Position numbers and translations under genes: made by a program. Under the pieces are notes generated by a model. The model did not search any database. It had not been told where the DNA came from and was given only the letters and a program-made list of their open reading frames with translations. Shown here one piece after another: positions 26,112-33,310 of a stretch of DNA of 64,000 nt (position 1 is the stretch's first letter; each line of letters begins with the position of its first letter). Origin of the DNA: Spiroplasma clarkii (GTDB taxonomy: Bacteria; Bacillota_I; Bacilli_A; Mycoplasmatales; Mycoplasmataceae); NCBI RefSeq assembly GCF_002795265.1, contig NZ_CP024870.1, forward strand, positions 1,426,001-1,490,000, read 5' to 3'.

Positions 26112-27041
26112 TTATCTGGCTGATTTGTCATATGGTACCCCAGATGCTGCTGGTGGTTTTGACATTCTTGATATTGCCATCATAGCAATTAATGAGAAGA
26201 TAAATGGTAAAGCTTTAACTCAGTCTCCTTGTGGGAAACTTGTAACCATTACTGGTAATACATCAGCAATTGCAAAGAATAAGGCAAATATTGCTGAAAA
26301 TAATGTAATAAATTTAATTCTTCATTGTCCAGCAATCATAATTGCAAGTCCTAAGAATCCAAATCCATTAACAGATCCATAAAATGATCCTGAGGTTCTG
26401 TTCATAACATAAAATGCTCCAGCAATCCCAGCAATAGCTGATGAAAGCATTACACATCAAAATCTATATTTTAAGACACTTATTCCGGCAGCTTCTAATG
26501 CATTTGGGTTTTCCCCAGCTGCTATATGTCTTTTACCTGTCCTTGTTAGGGAGAAGTAAATTCCCATTACTGCAATAATTATCATTGAGATAATTAAGTA
26601 AATTGTAAAGATATCATTTGAATCTAATGATATCTTAAATGAAAAGGTGTCAATTTTTGTTGGGTCTCCAATAACTCCTGAAGTTACTACAAAAAGACCA
26701 ATTCCTTGTGCCAATAAGTTTATGGCAGTTCCTGAAATAATTTGATCACATTTCAGCTTCAATGAAGCAAAAATGTGTAATAGTGAAAATATTCCAGCAA
26801 CAATAAATGCTGTTAAGAAACCAACAACCTGGGTTCAATCTGAACCACTATATAGTTTATTGGTTGTAATAGCAAAAGTTAAGGCTCCAATTGTCATGTA
26901 TCCCTCAACCCCAAGGTTAACAACCCCAGATCTTTCAGAAAACATTGAAGCCAAAGCTGCTAGTAGGAAAACCACAAAGAAACTTGATGTTGTTCCCATT
27001 AAATAGGGAAATGTTCCTGAACTAAGTAGTGATATAGTCAT
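26112..27041 (-). CDS. Nucleoside ABC transporter permease (NupQ/YufQ-like)
   Basis: A 309-aa BPD_transp_2 permease. The typical block ASMFSERSGVVNLGVEGYM is near the N-terminus, RTGKRHIAAGENPNALEAAG in the middle and NGFGFLGLAIMIAGQW near the end. It has about eight to ten membrane segments. GGAGGT lies 5 nt before ATG, and the start overlaps the end of the first permease gene by 20 nt. It pairs with the other permease, the double ATPase and the Bmp lipoprotein. Confidence 0.92.
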
Positions 27042-29340
27042 TTTGCACCTCCGCTATTTTATTAAATAGTACTTCTTTTGCTTTGTTTTTATCAACAGTG
27101 TTTTTACCTTCGGCAAGTTGTTGTTTGCATTCAGTTTTAAAAGTTCCAATTTTTTTTCTAGCACTTACTAATGCTTCTTTACGTTTTTGGTTTTGCACTT
27201 TAATGTATTCATTAAGTTCAGCCACTTTTTTACCAAACTCTTGGTTTAGTCCATTCTTAATGGCTTTTGCTTGTGCTTTAAATTCTTCAATAGTAATTGA
27301 AGCATCTTTTGCTTTAGCTGCTTTTTTAAGTGCTACAATTTTTAAATTAGCTTCACTTTCTGCAATAACTGCTTGGTTTAAAATTACAATTGTATGATCT
27401 CTATTTAAGTTTTTAAAATATTTTGAAATTCCATACAATCCTGAGTTGTAGTACTTGTTGAAACCTTTTTCCTTCAACTCTTTGTTTTCAGCCTTTAACT
27501 CAGAAATAATTTTTGCATATTTGGTTATCTCATTTCTAACTTCTTCTTTAAAGATTTGTTTAGTGGTTTTAATTTCACCTTGAATTTTTGTAATTTCATG
27601 TTCAAAGTGAGCATTTGAAATTACAAATTTTGCATTGTTAATTTTAAACAACATATCAGCAACTAACTCATATTTTCCATCTTCATAATTTTCAATATAG
27701 TGAGCATAATCTTGCTTATATTCAATAATTGAAGATTTGAACATAATTTTATTTGCATTTAAGATTTTAATATCATTTTTTAATTCATTGATTTGTTCTT
27801 TTGAACCATTTTGTACTTTAACTTCTTTTAATTCTTTAGTTAAATCCAAAATTGATTGAGTATTGATTTTTTTGATTGAATCCATTTTTTCAATTTTTTT
27901 AGTTAAAATAGCTTTTTGTTCTAACTTAACTTTTTTAACATCTTCTTTGATTGTGGCTTTTAAAGCAACTAAACTATCTTTTAGTTCTTTTATTTTTTGA
28001 ACCCCTGCAGCCACAAGTTGTGCATAAGCTTCACTTTTTTTGTATTCTAAATAGTTAGCTTCTGCAATTAGTAAATCATTATTTAATAGTGCAATTTTTT
28101 CTTCTGTTTGTCTTTTTAAGTTTAAAATGTATTCATCATTTTTTACTTTACTAATTAAAGCTCGATTCTCTTTAATTTTTTCATTGTTTTGACCAATTAA
28201 TAATCTTAATTCAACATCCTTATTAATGTAGTTTTGGATTTTCATCATTAATATTGGTCTAAATTGCATAAACAGAATATAAATTGTGGCACAATACATA
28301 ATTACTCCAGTAATTACATAACTCATTTCTTGAGAGGACATAGCCTCATCAGCAGCAGCTTGTGCTCCTGAGTTGATAATTCCTCATAACAATGCTACTG
28401 GAATTATCCCAATAACATTATTAAAAGCTACTAGTGCTACAGAAATTGCATCAAAACCTATGGTTGGCACCATATCTGTATAAAATGTCTGCTGCTTTTG
28501 AACATTGAAGTAGTAAAATATTCCTCCAAGGCTTATAAATAAACCTTGGAATGCTGTAGTCATAATAATAAACAAATTACCATTCACACCTGCATATTTT
28601 GCAGCTGTTTTTTGCTTACCAACCATATTAAACTTGTATCCAACAGTTGTGTAAGATAAAACAAATCAAGTTATTGCCACTGATATAAGTGCCATAACTA
28701 AACCAATAATTCAGGTGTTATCACTAATTGCTAGTCAATTTTGTTGTAATAAGTTAGCATTATTTTCACTAATTAATCATTTCATAATGTATCAAATAGT
28801 TCAGTTTAACATAATTGATGTTGCAACTTCGTGGATATTAAAGTAAACCTTTAATATTCCTGTTAGCACTGAAACTCCAATACCACAAATTAAGAAAACA
28901 ACAAATACCATAAGCATAATTGATGAATCAAGACTTGTCACTGCAACTCCCTTATTTGTAGCAATATCTCTCAGAATTAAATAACATGCTGCAAATCCTA
29001 GAACAGCTTGTCCTGAACCTCCCATATTGAATAGTCCTACTTTGAACCCTAGCGCTAATCCCAGTCCCATAAAGATAAAGACTGTTGTGTAGTTCATTGT
29101 TCTTGAAACTTGGTTTCCTGTTTTTGAACCAAAGGTTGAAAATGCTTCTACAAACATTGTTGTAATGTAAGCAATCCCATTTCCACCAGTAATGTACACT
29201 GTGATACACCCTAAAACCAACCCAATTAAGATTGCTATAATTGAAGATTTTATATAGTGGAATTTATTTGTAAATCCAGGAGACTTAAGATATAAAGCAG
29301 TTTTTCGCTTTACAATTCATGTTTTTGTATTAAACTTCAT
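27022..29340 (-). CDS. Nucleoside ABC transporter permease with ~400-aa coiled-coil tail
   Basis: The first ~360 residues are a BPD_transp_2 permease (NupP/YufP-like): KVGLFNMGGSGQAVLGF, the EVATSIMLNW motif, then VGKQKTAAKYAGVN and a last hydrophobic helix YVITGVIMYCATIYILFM. Residues ~365-772 are hydrophilic, Lys/Glu/Ala-rich and predicted by eye to be long coiled coils, so the protein is twice the usual length. Since it follows the last membrane helix and the transporter is an importer, the tail is probably cytosolic. Its ATG follows the ATPase stop by 1 nt. The function of the tail is unknown. Confidence 0.88.
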
Positions 29341-29341
29341 T

Positions 29342-30871
29342 TTAATCTTCCCTTCCTAACATCATTTTTCCAACTTCTTCTCTTTTTGCACCTTTTCCAG
29401 GTAGTTCTCCAATTTTCTTACCAGCATTTAAAACAACAATTCTATCTGCAAGAGCAAGAACCTCAGAAAGCTCATAAGAAATTAATAAAATTGCTCGATT
29501 GTCTTTTTTTGCTTTTAAAATTTGAGCATGGATAAATTCAATTGATCCAACATCTAATCCACGGGTTGGTTGATAAATTACCAGTAAATCTGTTGGCCTA
29601 GTAATTTCTCGACCCAAAATAACTTTTTGTTGATTTCCTCCAGATAACTGTCTTGCAATTGCAAATCCAGCATCTGCATTTCTTACATCAAATTTTTGAA
29701 TAATTGTTTGAGCATAAGCTTGTACAGCTCCTGAATTAATAATTTTTGCCTGACTAAATTTTGGATTGTCAATATCTTGTAACACTACATTTTGTGATAC
29801 TGAAAAGTCTAAAACTAATCCGTGTTTGTGACGATCTTCAGGAACATGACTTATTTTTCATTTGCTATACCTTGAAGCGATTGAAGCATAGGTAATATCA
29901 TGATTGTGAATCTTGACATTTCCTGAATAAACTTTTGACATTCCTGTAATTGCTTCAGCAATTTCTTGTTGTCCATTACCTTCAACTCCAGCAATTGCTA
30001 CAACTTCTCCAGCATGAACATCTAAACTAAAGTTTTCTAAACCAATAACTTTGGTATTTGAAACTTTTTTCATTGTTAAGTTTTCAATTTTTAAAACAAC
30101 TTCTTCACTTCTTGGACTGTAGTCATTTTTAGTTTCAACAACTTTTCTACCAACCATTGCTTCAGATAATTGTTCAACTGAAGTTTCTTTCATATCAAAT
30201 GTTCCAATTACTTCTCCAAGGCGAATAACTGTAGCAGAATTTGCTACCTTTTTAATTTCTGCCATTTTGTGTGTAATTAGAATAATTGTCTTTCCATCTT
30301 TTTGTAATTCCAACATAACTTGTAATAACCCGTCAATCTCTTGGGGGGTTAGCACAGCAGTTGGTTCATCAAATACTAGTATATCTGCATCTCTATATAA
30401 GATTTTTAATATTTCTGCTTTTTGCTTCATTCCAACTGTAGCATTAGCAGTTGTTTTGTCTAAATCAATTCTTAAATTGTATTGATTCATTATTTTAGTA
30501 ATTTTGTTTTTAATTTTTCTTGAATTTATGATTTCACCAGCAGTAGTCATTTCTGCACCAAGGGCAATATTTTCTCATAAAGTAAAGATGTCAACCATTT
30601 TAAAGTGTTGGTGGACCATCCCAATTCCTAGCCGATTAGCTTTAACAGGATTTGAGATAATTTCCTCTTTACCATTAATTTTGATAGTTCCTTTTGTTTG
30701 CTGATAAATACCAAATAAAACTGACATTAATGTCGATTTTCCAGCTCCATTTTCACCAACCAAAGCATGAATTTCACCTTTTTTTACTTTAAAATTTACT
30801 TCTTTATTGGCAACAATGGTTTTGTTAAATACCATTCAAATGTCTTCCATTTCAACAGCGTATTTTCCCAT
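29342..30871 (-). CDS. Nucleoside ABC transporter ATP-binding protein (two ATPase domains)
   Basis: A 509-aa NupO/YufO- or RbsA-type double ATPase. Domain 1 has Walker A GENGAGKST and Walker B ILVFDEPTAVL with the signature loop degenerate (NATVGMKQK), as usual for these proteins. Domain 2 has a degenerate Walker A (VEGNGQQE), a good LSGGNQQK signature and LLVIYQPTRGLD, in which the catalytic Glu is not canonical. This mixed arrangement is normal for the family. AAAGGA precedes ATG 30871. Confidence 0.93.
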
Positions 30872-30975: not shown

Positions 30976-32376
30976 TTATTCAGTACCTAAAACAGCATTT
31001 GCATATTTCACAATATTTTCACCACCAATAATGGTTGCTTTTGCCTGAGGATCCTCTGGAAGTTTACCCATAGCAGTAAATAATTCTTTTGATGCTACAG
31101 TTAATCTTGATAATACTGAACTTCCACCTTCATTATCAGTTATGAACTCTCATAATTTAGTATATAGACCATCTTTTACAATCAGGTTTTTTTCATTTGT
31201 ACCCATTGCTCCTCCAGCAAACAGTGTTTGATTTTCTCATGATTTTCCTTTTTCTGTTGCTGGATTAACTGCTACATCATCTCTTGTTAAAACAATATTT
31301 TCTTTATTTCAATATTCTTCAACAGCATCTTGAATTTCACTATTGTCTTTGTACTGACTTACATGTCCAAGTGCTAAAATAGTTGCTCCAACTAGATCTT
31401 TTTTTGCTGATGTGATAAAACGATCACTATAGTCGCTGTATGCTTCAACTTGATCAGTATCAACACCCACCACTTTTACATTCTTAGCACTATGCACTGG
31501 TGATGCTGCAGCCACTAATGTATCATATGTTTGCGGTCCAGCAACTGGCATTATAACATTTGCTCCTCGGTTAATTAGGTCATTTGAAATTGTTGCACCT
31601 TTACCTGCATCAAAACTACTTGTAAATCAAGAACTACTTTCACTAGTTGTTGTTCAGGCATTATTCCCAATAACAGCACTTTCATTTGCAAAATCAGCTT
31701 TTACGCGTTTATAACCTTGTGTTATTTGTGCTAATGCTGCTTGTTTAGTATCATCTAATTTGTTTCAATACTCTGCTGCTGCTAAGTAACCAACCATAAA
31801 GTTATCAACTGAACCTGGGAATGATTGTCCACCATATGTTCCTAACTTAACAGTTGGATTAGCTTCAGCTTGATTTTTGTTTGCATATCAAACAATTGAA
31901 GATAGACCTCCAAAGAATCCTGAGATATCCCCTCTAAATTGAATACCCACTTGATTTTCTTTTTCTGCATGGCCATTATCTAAAATAATTGTGCTTCCGC
32001 CAACAGTTTTCATTATGTCTGGTGCTTTATTTTTACCATCAAATGAATGGTGAAACCCTGGTAAAATTAGTGTTTTTGCACCTTTTTTAGCAGCATTATT
32101 GTATGCACTTTCCAATGCTGTTAAATCTCTTGGCTCAGAATAAGCAATTGAAGAGTAAATTTTTTCGCCTTTGTCATCTTTGTTTCCAATAAAATCATCT
32201 AAAAATTTGTTTCCTCCATTAAATGAACTTTCATTGAATGATTTATCGTTGATTTTTCCTGCATCTGTAATTAGTCAAATTTCGTTAAATCTGTCATTTG
32301 ACCCACAAGCTATTACGCTTGCTGAACTTGAAGCAACGATTGTTGTTGCCATCAATGCTGATAATAGTTTTTTCAT
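30976..32376 (-). CDS. BMP-family nucleoside-binding lipoprotein
   Basis: The 466-aa substrate-binding protein has a leader with lipobox SVIAC, then the BMP pattern: IWLITDAGKINDKSFNESSF, ILPGFHHSF, GIQFRGDISGFFGG, VGYLAAAEYW and VGVDTDQV. It would deliver nucleosides to the permeases encoded downstream. It is the first gene of the operon, after a ~200-nt leader with an internal terminator-like hairpin. The ATG has GGAG 11 nt upstream. Confidence 0.92.
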
Positions 32377-32576
32377 ATATTCATGTCTCCTTATTGAGTT
32401 ATGTTTTTCTTATAAATAGAGTGTAGATAAACTAAGAAATTTTTTATAAAAAAAGAGAAAGTAAGGCACCTTTTTCTCTAAAAGATAACAATATTTCCTC
32501 CCATTGTTTTAAACCAATTTACAATTTCTAAAACAACCTTTAAAAGTACGTTTCGTTTATTTACATTTTTATTATA
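32377..32576 (-). promoter_or_regulatory. Long structured leader of the nucleoside transporter operon, attenuator or riboswitch candidate
   Basis: A TATAAT box lies at 32571-32576. The leader then shows a stem TTGTTTTA/TAAAACAA (32504-32511 with 32529-32536), a competing stem ACAAT/ATTGT (32488-32492 with 32503-32507) that shares TTGT with the first, and then a terminator-like hairpin. About 70 nt remain before the start codon. I do not recognise a known aptamer; it lacks the purine riboswitch core. Confidence 0.55.
32446..32479 (-). terminator. Terminator-like hairpin inside the bmp leader
   Basis: On the minus strand AGAGAAA pairs with TTTCTCT, extended by an inner AAG/CTT-type helix, and is followed directly by at least six T residues. 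It lies between the promoter and the start codon, so it would cause premature termination unless prevented. Confidence 0.7.
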
Positions 32577-32713
32577 TCTTATCTAACAAGAATGTGTTGT
32601 AAATTTTAAAAAAAACTAAAAAATTTCCACCAATTAGTGGAGTTATATATTCTTTAAAAGGTAGCCCTTAAAACAAGTAATTACTATATAATAATTTCTA
32701 GGTGATTAAAATT
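32577..32713. promoter_or_regulatory. Divergent intergenic region with plus-strand promoter
   Basis: A plus-strand TATAAT lies at 32687-32692, with AGGTGAT before the next ATG. A short palindrome TCCAC/GTGGA (32626-32641) lies between the two divergent promoters and could be an operator. Confidence 0.5.
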
Positions 32714-33310
32714 ATGGAATTTAAAACAATAAAACCCTACTTGAGAAAAAACTTACTTTGAATGGGTGCTGTGATTTTCAGTTTGATTACAATTAGTTTA
32801 ATTGTAATCTTAGTTTTACCTTTAACAAAGCAAAATAAAGTGATTTTTGCTTCCCAATTTGCCTTAAATTTTTTAATAATGTATTTTGTGAGTTTTGTTT
32901 TAAATTCTAATCGTTCAGCTTTGACAATTTTTACAAATATTGAAACTACTACAGATTTAACTACAAATGAAGTTGAAGTTACTGTAAAAAAAAGTAACTT
33001 TGTTCACATTTTTATTCTTTTACTAACAATTGCAACTTTTTTTATTCAACTAACAAGTGGTGGGCTAATTCTCAAAATAGGTTTTGCCACTTATGCCCGT
33101 AATAACTGGTGAGTTTTTTTAATAGTTTTTGTTATAAACATTTTATATTTTTACCTATTTTTCAGTATTGATGTTTACTTGCTTGATAATAGTCCTCAGT
33201 TTAAAGCAGATTACTTAGAATTTTTAAAAGAATATAAAAGTCAAAAAGCAGCTTTTGAAGCAGCTCAAAAAATAGAGCAAGAAAAAGTAGAACCTAATTC
33301 AGAAGAATAG
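32714..33310 (+). CDS. Four-helix-type membrane protein of unknown function
   Basis: 198 aa with TGA-encoded Trp residues. Hydrophobic segments are at about 17-40, 47-67, 95-117 and 130-155, and the C-terminal 40 residues are charged (KADYLEFLKEYKSQKAAFEA). No family is recognised. It is a single gene divergent from the nucleoside transporter; its 3' end is folded into a terminator shared with trmB. Confidence 0.75.

Follow-up and report, generated by a model that had tools for sequence, protein, structure and literature searches.

A probable aptamer-less remnant of a purine-riboswitch leader upstream of the bmp operon of Spiroplasma clarkii

What controls the nucleoside transporter operon of Spiroplasma clarkii, and does its leader still sense a ligand? 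In the stretch of 64,000 nucleotides analysed here (the window), the bmp leader lies on the minus strand between a TATAAT sequence (32576-32571) and the bmp start at 32376. An earlier note on this DNA had read it as a ligand-controlled terminator of a nucleoside transporter operon, perhaps of an undescribed class with a purine-related ligand. The nature of the operon was confirmed by domain searches. The bmp gene (30976-32376, minus strand) encodes the substrate-binding lipoprotein of a nucleoside-type ABC transporter (PF02608, 32.4 bits, cut-off 24.1), and the same operon contains genes for an ABC ATPase with two ABC_tran stretches (29342-30871, minus) and a BPD_transp_2 permease (27022-29340, minus). 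The permease has a long C-terminal extension: the domain covers residues 79-351 and is followed by about 400 K/E-rich residues with a coiled-coil-like look. The source genome is 1.56 Mb in size and uses genetic code 4, and its family also includes Mesoplasma. A bmp relative is present in all 20 genomes of the genus, the source genome counted. Descriptions of riboswitches usually treat them as complete units.

The TATAAT sequence, already pointed out in the earlier note, is read as the -10 box, and the same reading applies ahead of the bmp aptamers of sibling leaders. The string from this promoter to TGTAAAT is common to purine-riboswitch leaders. At what is presumed to be the mRNA 5′ end lies one strand of a candidate outer helix, P0 (TGTAAATAAAC, 32565-32555), with 10 of 11 pairs to a 3′ strand (GTTTATCTACA, 32432-32422) which alignment and pairing tests place past the terminator. 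Downstream of the 5′ strand lies hairpin H1 (32554-32530, -3.2 kcal/mol), a prediction from a single sequence. Folding and alignment then give a P1-like stem, H2 (32536-32504), formed by TTGTTTTA (32536-32529) and TAAAACAA (32511-32504); it has 11 pairs with its extension and a 13-nucleotide loop, and it occupies the position of the purine aptamer in the siblings. H1 and H2 are predicted to compete for 32536-32530. A further predicted stem, H3 (32508-32487; AACAAT at 32508-32503 with ATTGTT at 32492-32487), is antiterminator-like and reaches into the terminator's 5′ arm. H2 and H3 would be mutually exclusive, both using 32507-32504, just as the earlier note had it.

The hairpin with a U tract that had been described is also present (AGAGAAA at 32479-32473 with TTTCTCT at 32460-32454, followed by T at 32453-32448), but it is only the short form of the terminator. 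A longer hairpin (about 32502-32453) begins where H2 ends and is more stable, at -11.1 kcal/mol versus -5.4 kcal/mol for the short form. The intrinsic terminator is thus placed at 32502-32448, with its U tract at 32453-32448. By sequence and folding, the leader has what is expected of an attenuator, a hairpin directly before a U tract and upstream of the start codon. A scan with a strict terminator consensus did not include the bmp terminator in its output and reported another hairpin at 32641-32626 (minus). The latter (TCCACTAATTGGTGGA) is short, has a T run, and lies in the gap that separates the bmp promoter from the divergent gene. A possible leader peptide, starting with ATG at 32504 and reaching TAG after eight codons, was rejected; no Shine-Dalgarno sequence was seen and, as judged by eye, it is absent in the siblings.

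Is the leader of S. clarkii typical of its genus? I compared the 21 other bmp leaders of the genus (L004-L024), using the Rfam models and R1, a genus-specific covariance model of the purine aptamer built from 20 aptamers of the genus. R1 matched 14 of the 21 leaders (L004-L016 and L024) with 67.5-84.4 bits; 12 of the 14 belong to the training set, while L007 (67.5 bits) and L013 (82.9 bits) lie outside it. Outside the genus, 8 of 13 loci (L033-L038, L040, and L077) were matched at 34-52 bits, and 12 of all 34 loci given had no match at E values up to 1. At the Rfam gathering cut-offs (37 bits for RF00167, 51 bits for RF01510), RF00167 was found in six and RF01510 in one of 20 genus loci, and RF01510 in eight of a second set of 17 loci. 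The guanine-type RF00167 is present in 50 of 60 genomes of the family; at bmp it scores above the cut-off in some genomes and just under it in others (36.0 bits in G005 and 34.8 bits in G009). The 2dG-I aptamer (RF01510) precedes bmp in all seven g7 loci read and in Mesoplasma grammopterae. In the aptamer-bearing leaders of the genus, the purine-class aptamer (RF00167/RF01510) follows the same promoter and precedes a terminator, and the sibling terminators have a hairpin and U tract at the same place as that of the window. Nine of the 14 reach -13 kcal/mol or lower, and those of L004, L009, L010, L012, and L013 are weak in the 66-nucleotide frame used.

The aptamer is not universal, being missing from 7 of the 21 leaders, and four of these (L017-L020) belong to a separate bmp clade. 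These four leaders, like that of the window with its candidate P0, have a U-tract hairpin (of the GGAGG type there) and a 5′-end helix without a purine aptamer; they differ in lacking a P1-like stem and in folding better than shuffles (z of -3.5, -6.5, -2.1, and -3.7). Their AAAGGAGG hairpin and U tract are nested in the 5′-end helix. The window leader is undescribed among the matches listed from the open-PMC literature on riboswitches in Spiroplasma or Entomoplasmatales and on vestigial riboswitch terminators, as far as the available parts of these texts go. No paper on a purine riboswitch in Spiroplasma was found in the open-PMC literature.

No aptamer was detected in the window leader. The Rfam covariance search that the earlier note had proposed gave no RF00167 or RF01510 match in the window at the gathering cut-offs, and none up to E 10 in 32300-32700. 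With its filters off, R1 gave at most 5.7 bits on the transcribed strand between the promoter and the start codon (search range 32300-32720), and nothing up to E 10 over the whole window. As a positive control, R1 matched two sites elsewhere in the source genome at 70.4 and 67.8 bits, both members of the training set; these purine riboswitches precede hpt and a gene for a PhnD-like lipoprotein (genes named by eye). Some low-scoring matches were dismissed as chance. The Rfam matches up to E 10 in 32300-32700 (GibS, two snoRNAs, PreQ1, and mir-5) were nowhere near a gathering score. Two R1 matches were absent from the whole-window search and in the wrong location or strand, and were therefore taken as chance: one of 14.6 bits at 32654-32599 (minus), a plain hairpin and T run upstream of the promoter, and one of 13.8 bits at 32438-32511 (plus).

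Aligning 15 leaders of bmp genes, an approach also proposed before, shows what the window leader has kept and what it has not. Its promoter, TGTAAAT, terminator, and 3′ strand TTTATCTACA (CTACA) stand in the register of the siblings. Its interior is shorter than theirs and is without the conserved aptamer core; L2 GGG, J2/3 UCUAC, and L3 ACC, invariant in the 20 genus aptamers, are absent from the window row, in agreement with the previous remark that no known purine aptamer core is seen. Compared with the RF00167 leaders at sibling bmp genes, the window leader thus shares the gene, the promoter string, the terminator after a P1-like stem, and perhaps the outer helix, but it lacks both the P2/P3 core and the conserved joining regions. 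The 20 genus genomes yielded no homologue of the interior. A search for related loci with the single bmp protein found nothing in genome contigs, and one with a bmp alignment returned only M. grammopterae and a Spiroplasma MAG, no closer relative.

Where does this leader come from? A tree of 33 bmp proteins puts the window inside a fork of 19 rows, with the aptamer-free L017-L020 in a separate clade. The other 18 rows of the fork all have purine-type leaders (17 as labelled, and L077 by Rfam). The simplest history, although unproven, is therefore that the aptamer was lost in the lineage of the window. The fork has less than full support (90/92), and the window sits on a long branch (0.9). This exact leader is represented by one sequence, so that homology does not distinguish loss from replacement. 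The purine link suggested earlier thus holds by descent, with RF00167 or RF01510 at the same place in the siblings; a working ligand switch in the window copy itself is not supported.

How much do the stems themselves tell? The folding energy of the whole leader is like that of its shuffles (z of 0.01, with 99 of 200 shuffles equally good). Among 1000 dinucleotide shuffles, judged by criteria chosen after the real sequence was seen, an exclusive stem pair arose in 155, a stem followed by a U tract in 78, and the two features together in 20. On their own, the stems are thus near chance and are weak evidence. The terminator and the layout of the leader gain weight from the homologous leaders, which show the same arrangement. 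In thermodynamic predictions for a growing transcript, the best fold contained H3 at 80-100 and at 110 nucleotides (-13.1 kcal/mol at 110, the last fold with H3), and at 115 nucleotides it contained H2 and the terminator instead (-17.7 kcal/mol).

On balance, I regard this as probably a decayed purine-riboswitch leader of bmp that has lost its aptamer and now acts as a leaky attenuator independent of any ligand. The ancestor would have been a terminator leader of bmp under the control of a purine riboswitch. The aptamer core (P2, P3, and J2/3) would then have disappeared in the window lineage, leaving the promoter, the P1-like stem, the terminator, and P0. With H2 and the terminator forming side by side, part of the transcripts would end near 32448 and the rest would read into bmp. 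Since no ligand site is seen, termination with some read-through may be the default, and constitutive, leaky attenuation is the most likely outcome without an aptamer. However, the mutual exclusion of H2 and H3 keeps a switch-like layout, which a purely dead leader need not have, and P0 of the window is weak in the wider of two pairing tests described below. The switch-like layout could be taken to mean that, on the conserved expression platform, the purine aptamer has given way to a new and small ligand-sensing one, with H1, H2, and H3 as the switching stems: H3 overlaps the terminator arm, and exclusive stems and a terminator coincided in so few of the shuffles. I consider such a replacement improbable, given the loop of only 13 nucleotides in H2, the ordinary folding energy, the lack of an Rfam class, and an interior without a homologue among the genus genomes. 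The earlier idea of an undescribed class is accordingly not supported; of the proposed ligand-controlled terminator, the terminator leader of the bmp operon is supported and the working ligand switch is not.

A purine aptamer that has diverged past recognition and still functions would fit the descent of the leader and the existence of variant purine riboswitches such as 2dG-I in Mollicutes. Nevertheless, R1 recognizes even the distant 2dG-I leaders with scores far above anything in this leader (34-52 bits versus at most 5.7), the three conserved motifs are absent, and there is no room for P2 and P3, which makes this explanation very improbable. A plainer thought is that there is no regulation, the terminator being weak or inactive, the stems being accidents of an AT-rich leader, and bmp being simply constitutive. 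The shuffles, which fold as well as the leader and contain exclusive stems in 155 of 1000 cases, speak for it; the hairpin and U tract at the position of the sibling terminators speak against it, most of those reaching -13 kcal/mol or lower and that of the window -11.1 kcal/mol. I hold this to be unlikely. If the reading as a decayed, aptamer-less attenuator is right, a leader with a promoter, an expression platform, and an outer helix but no sensor would form, with its siblings, a natural before-and-after pair for the loss of riboswitch control.

The outer helix is a more general lead than the window leader itself. The 5′ end of sibling leaders (TGTAAAT...) forms pairs with a strand ahead of the ribosome site. 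Tested with 12-nucleotide strands against shuffles, the pairing had p < 0.05 in 11 of 15 bmp leaders including the window (p of 0.016), the others being L007, L008, L011, and L024. In a wider duplex test, in which the 5′ strand was extended and its partner sought past the U tract, p was below 0.05 in 12 of 15 leaders (12 of 14 siblings) and not in the window (0.249), L008 (0.076), or L011 (0.113). For L010, L012, and L013, the best partner in the 12-nucleotide test was a copy within the terminator region. The 5′ strand of these three leaders (TGTAAATTAAA) has two candidate partners, one in the terminator hairpin (11 pairs) and one past the terminator. A motif-free test gave p < 0.05 in 22 of 28 genus purine leaders (the two of S. 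clarkii counted) and in 6 of 12 of the genus g8, where a thirteenth stretch (L147) was left out because of a contig end.

For covariation, 29 rows were used: the 15 bmp leaders plus 14 other purine leaders, which were what was left of 28 once the 14 without the motif on both sides had been dropped. Of 348 cells, 308 were paired, while 10,000 re-deals of the 3′ strands gave a mean of 264.5 and a maximum of 294; given the relatedness of the rows and their selection by motif, this result is not to be read as a probability. Without the four motif columns, 192 of 232 cells were paired (re-deal mean 148.5, maximum 177), and the 15 bmp rows alone had 155 of 180 (mean 142.4, maximum 154). These comparisons strongly support base-pair covariation of P0 across the purine-type leaders of the genus. 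A reading of TGTAAAT/ATTTACA as a DNA operator was rejected, since the pair changes on both sides and the G-U pairs fit RNA better.

An antiterminator helix P0 is described for the 2′-dG switch before the ribonucleotide reductase of M. florum (nucleotides 9-23 with 107-121), where it uses the 5′ strand of P1, according to the available part of the report (PMC12268651). Several leaders of the genus likewise use the P1 5′ strand for P0. Compared with the 2dG-I leaders of M. florum and its relatives, the window lacks an aptamer, and in the genus bmp leaders P0 has its 3′ strand after the terminator U tract. P0 is therefore presumably not the antiterminator of that terminator in the bmp leaders. 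A covarying P0 past the terminator in the sibling bmp leaders would be a testable addition to the mechanism of purine-class switches in Mollicutes. A speculative idea, which I would not favour as yet, is that P0 in the bmp leaders of the genus adds a further level of regulation that does not depend on the aptamer, such as a 5′-end clamp protecting the read-through mRNA or a helix presenting the ribosome site, and that it has outlived the aptamer in S. clarkii both at bmp and in a second leader, ahead of a noncoding stretch adjacent to trxB, both being stripped-down riboswitch leaders.

A further copy of the bmp promoter string (TATAATAAAAATGTAAAT) stands next to trxB, a gene named by eye, in the source genome; the loci concerned are L002/L164 (G000:C1, about 1317797-1317518, minus), L123, and L130. 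The trxB-side leader has TGTAAAT...ATTTACA without an aptamer and is followed by a stretch without a long ORF, a hairpin with a C-rich loop, and a terminator. At the same place in G005 and G008, a 2dG-I aptamer precedes a similar noncoding stretch, these being 2 of 20 such loci. The stretch beside trxB may be a noncoding RNA headed by a riboswitch, or else a gene in decay.
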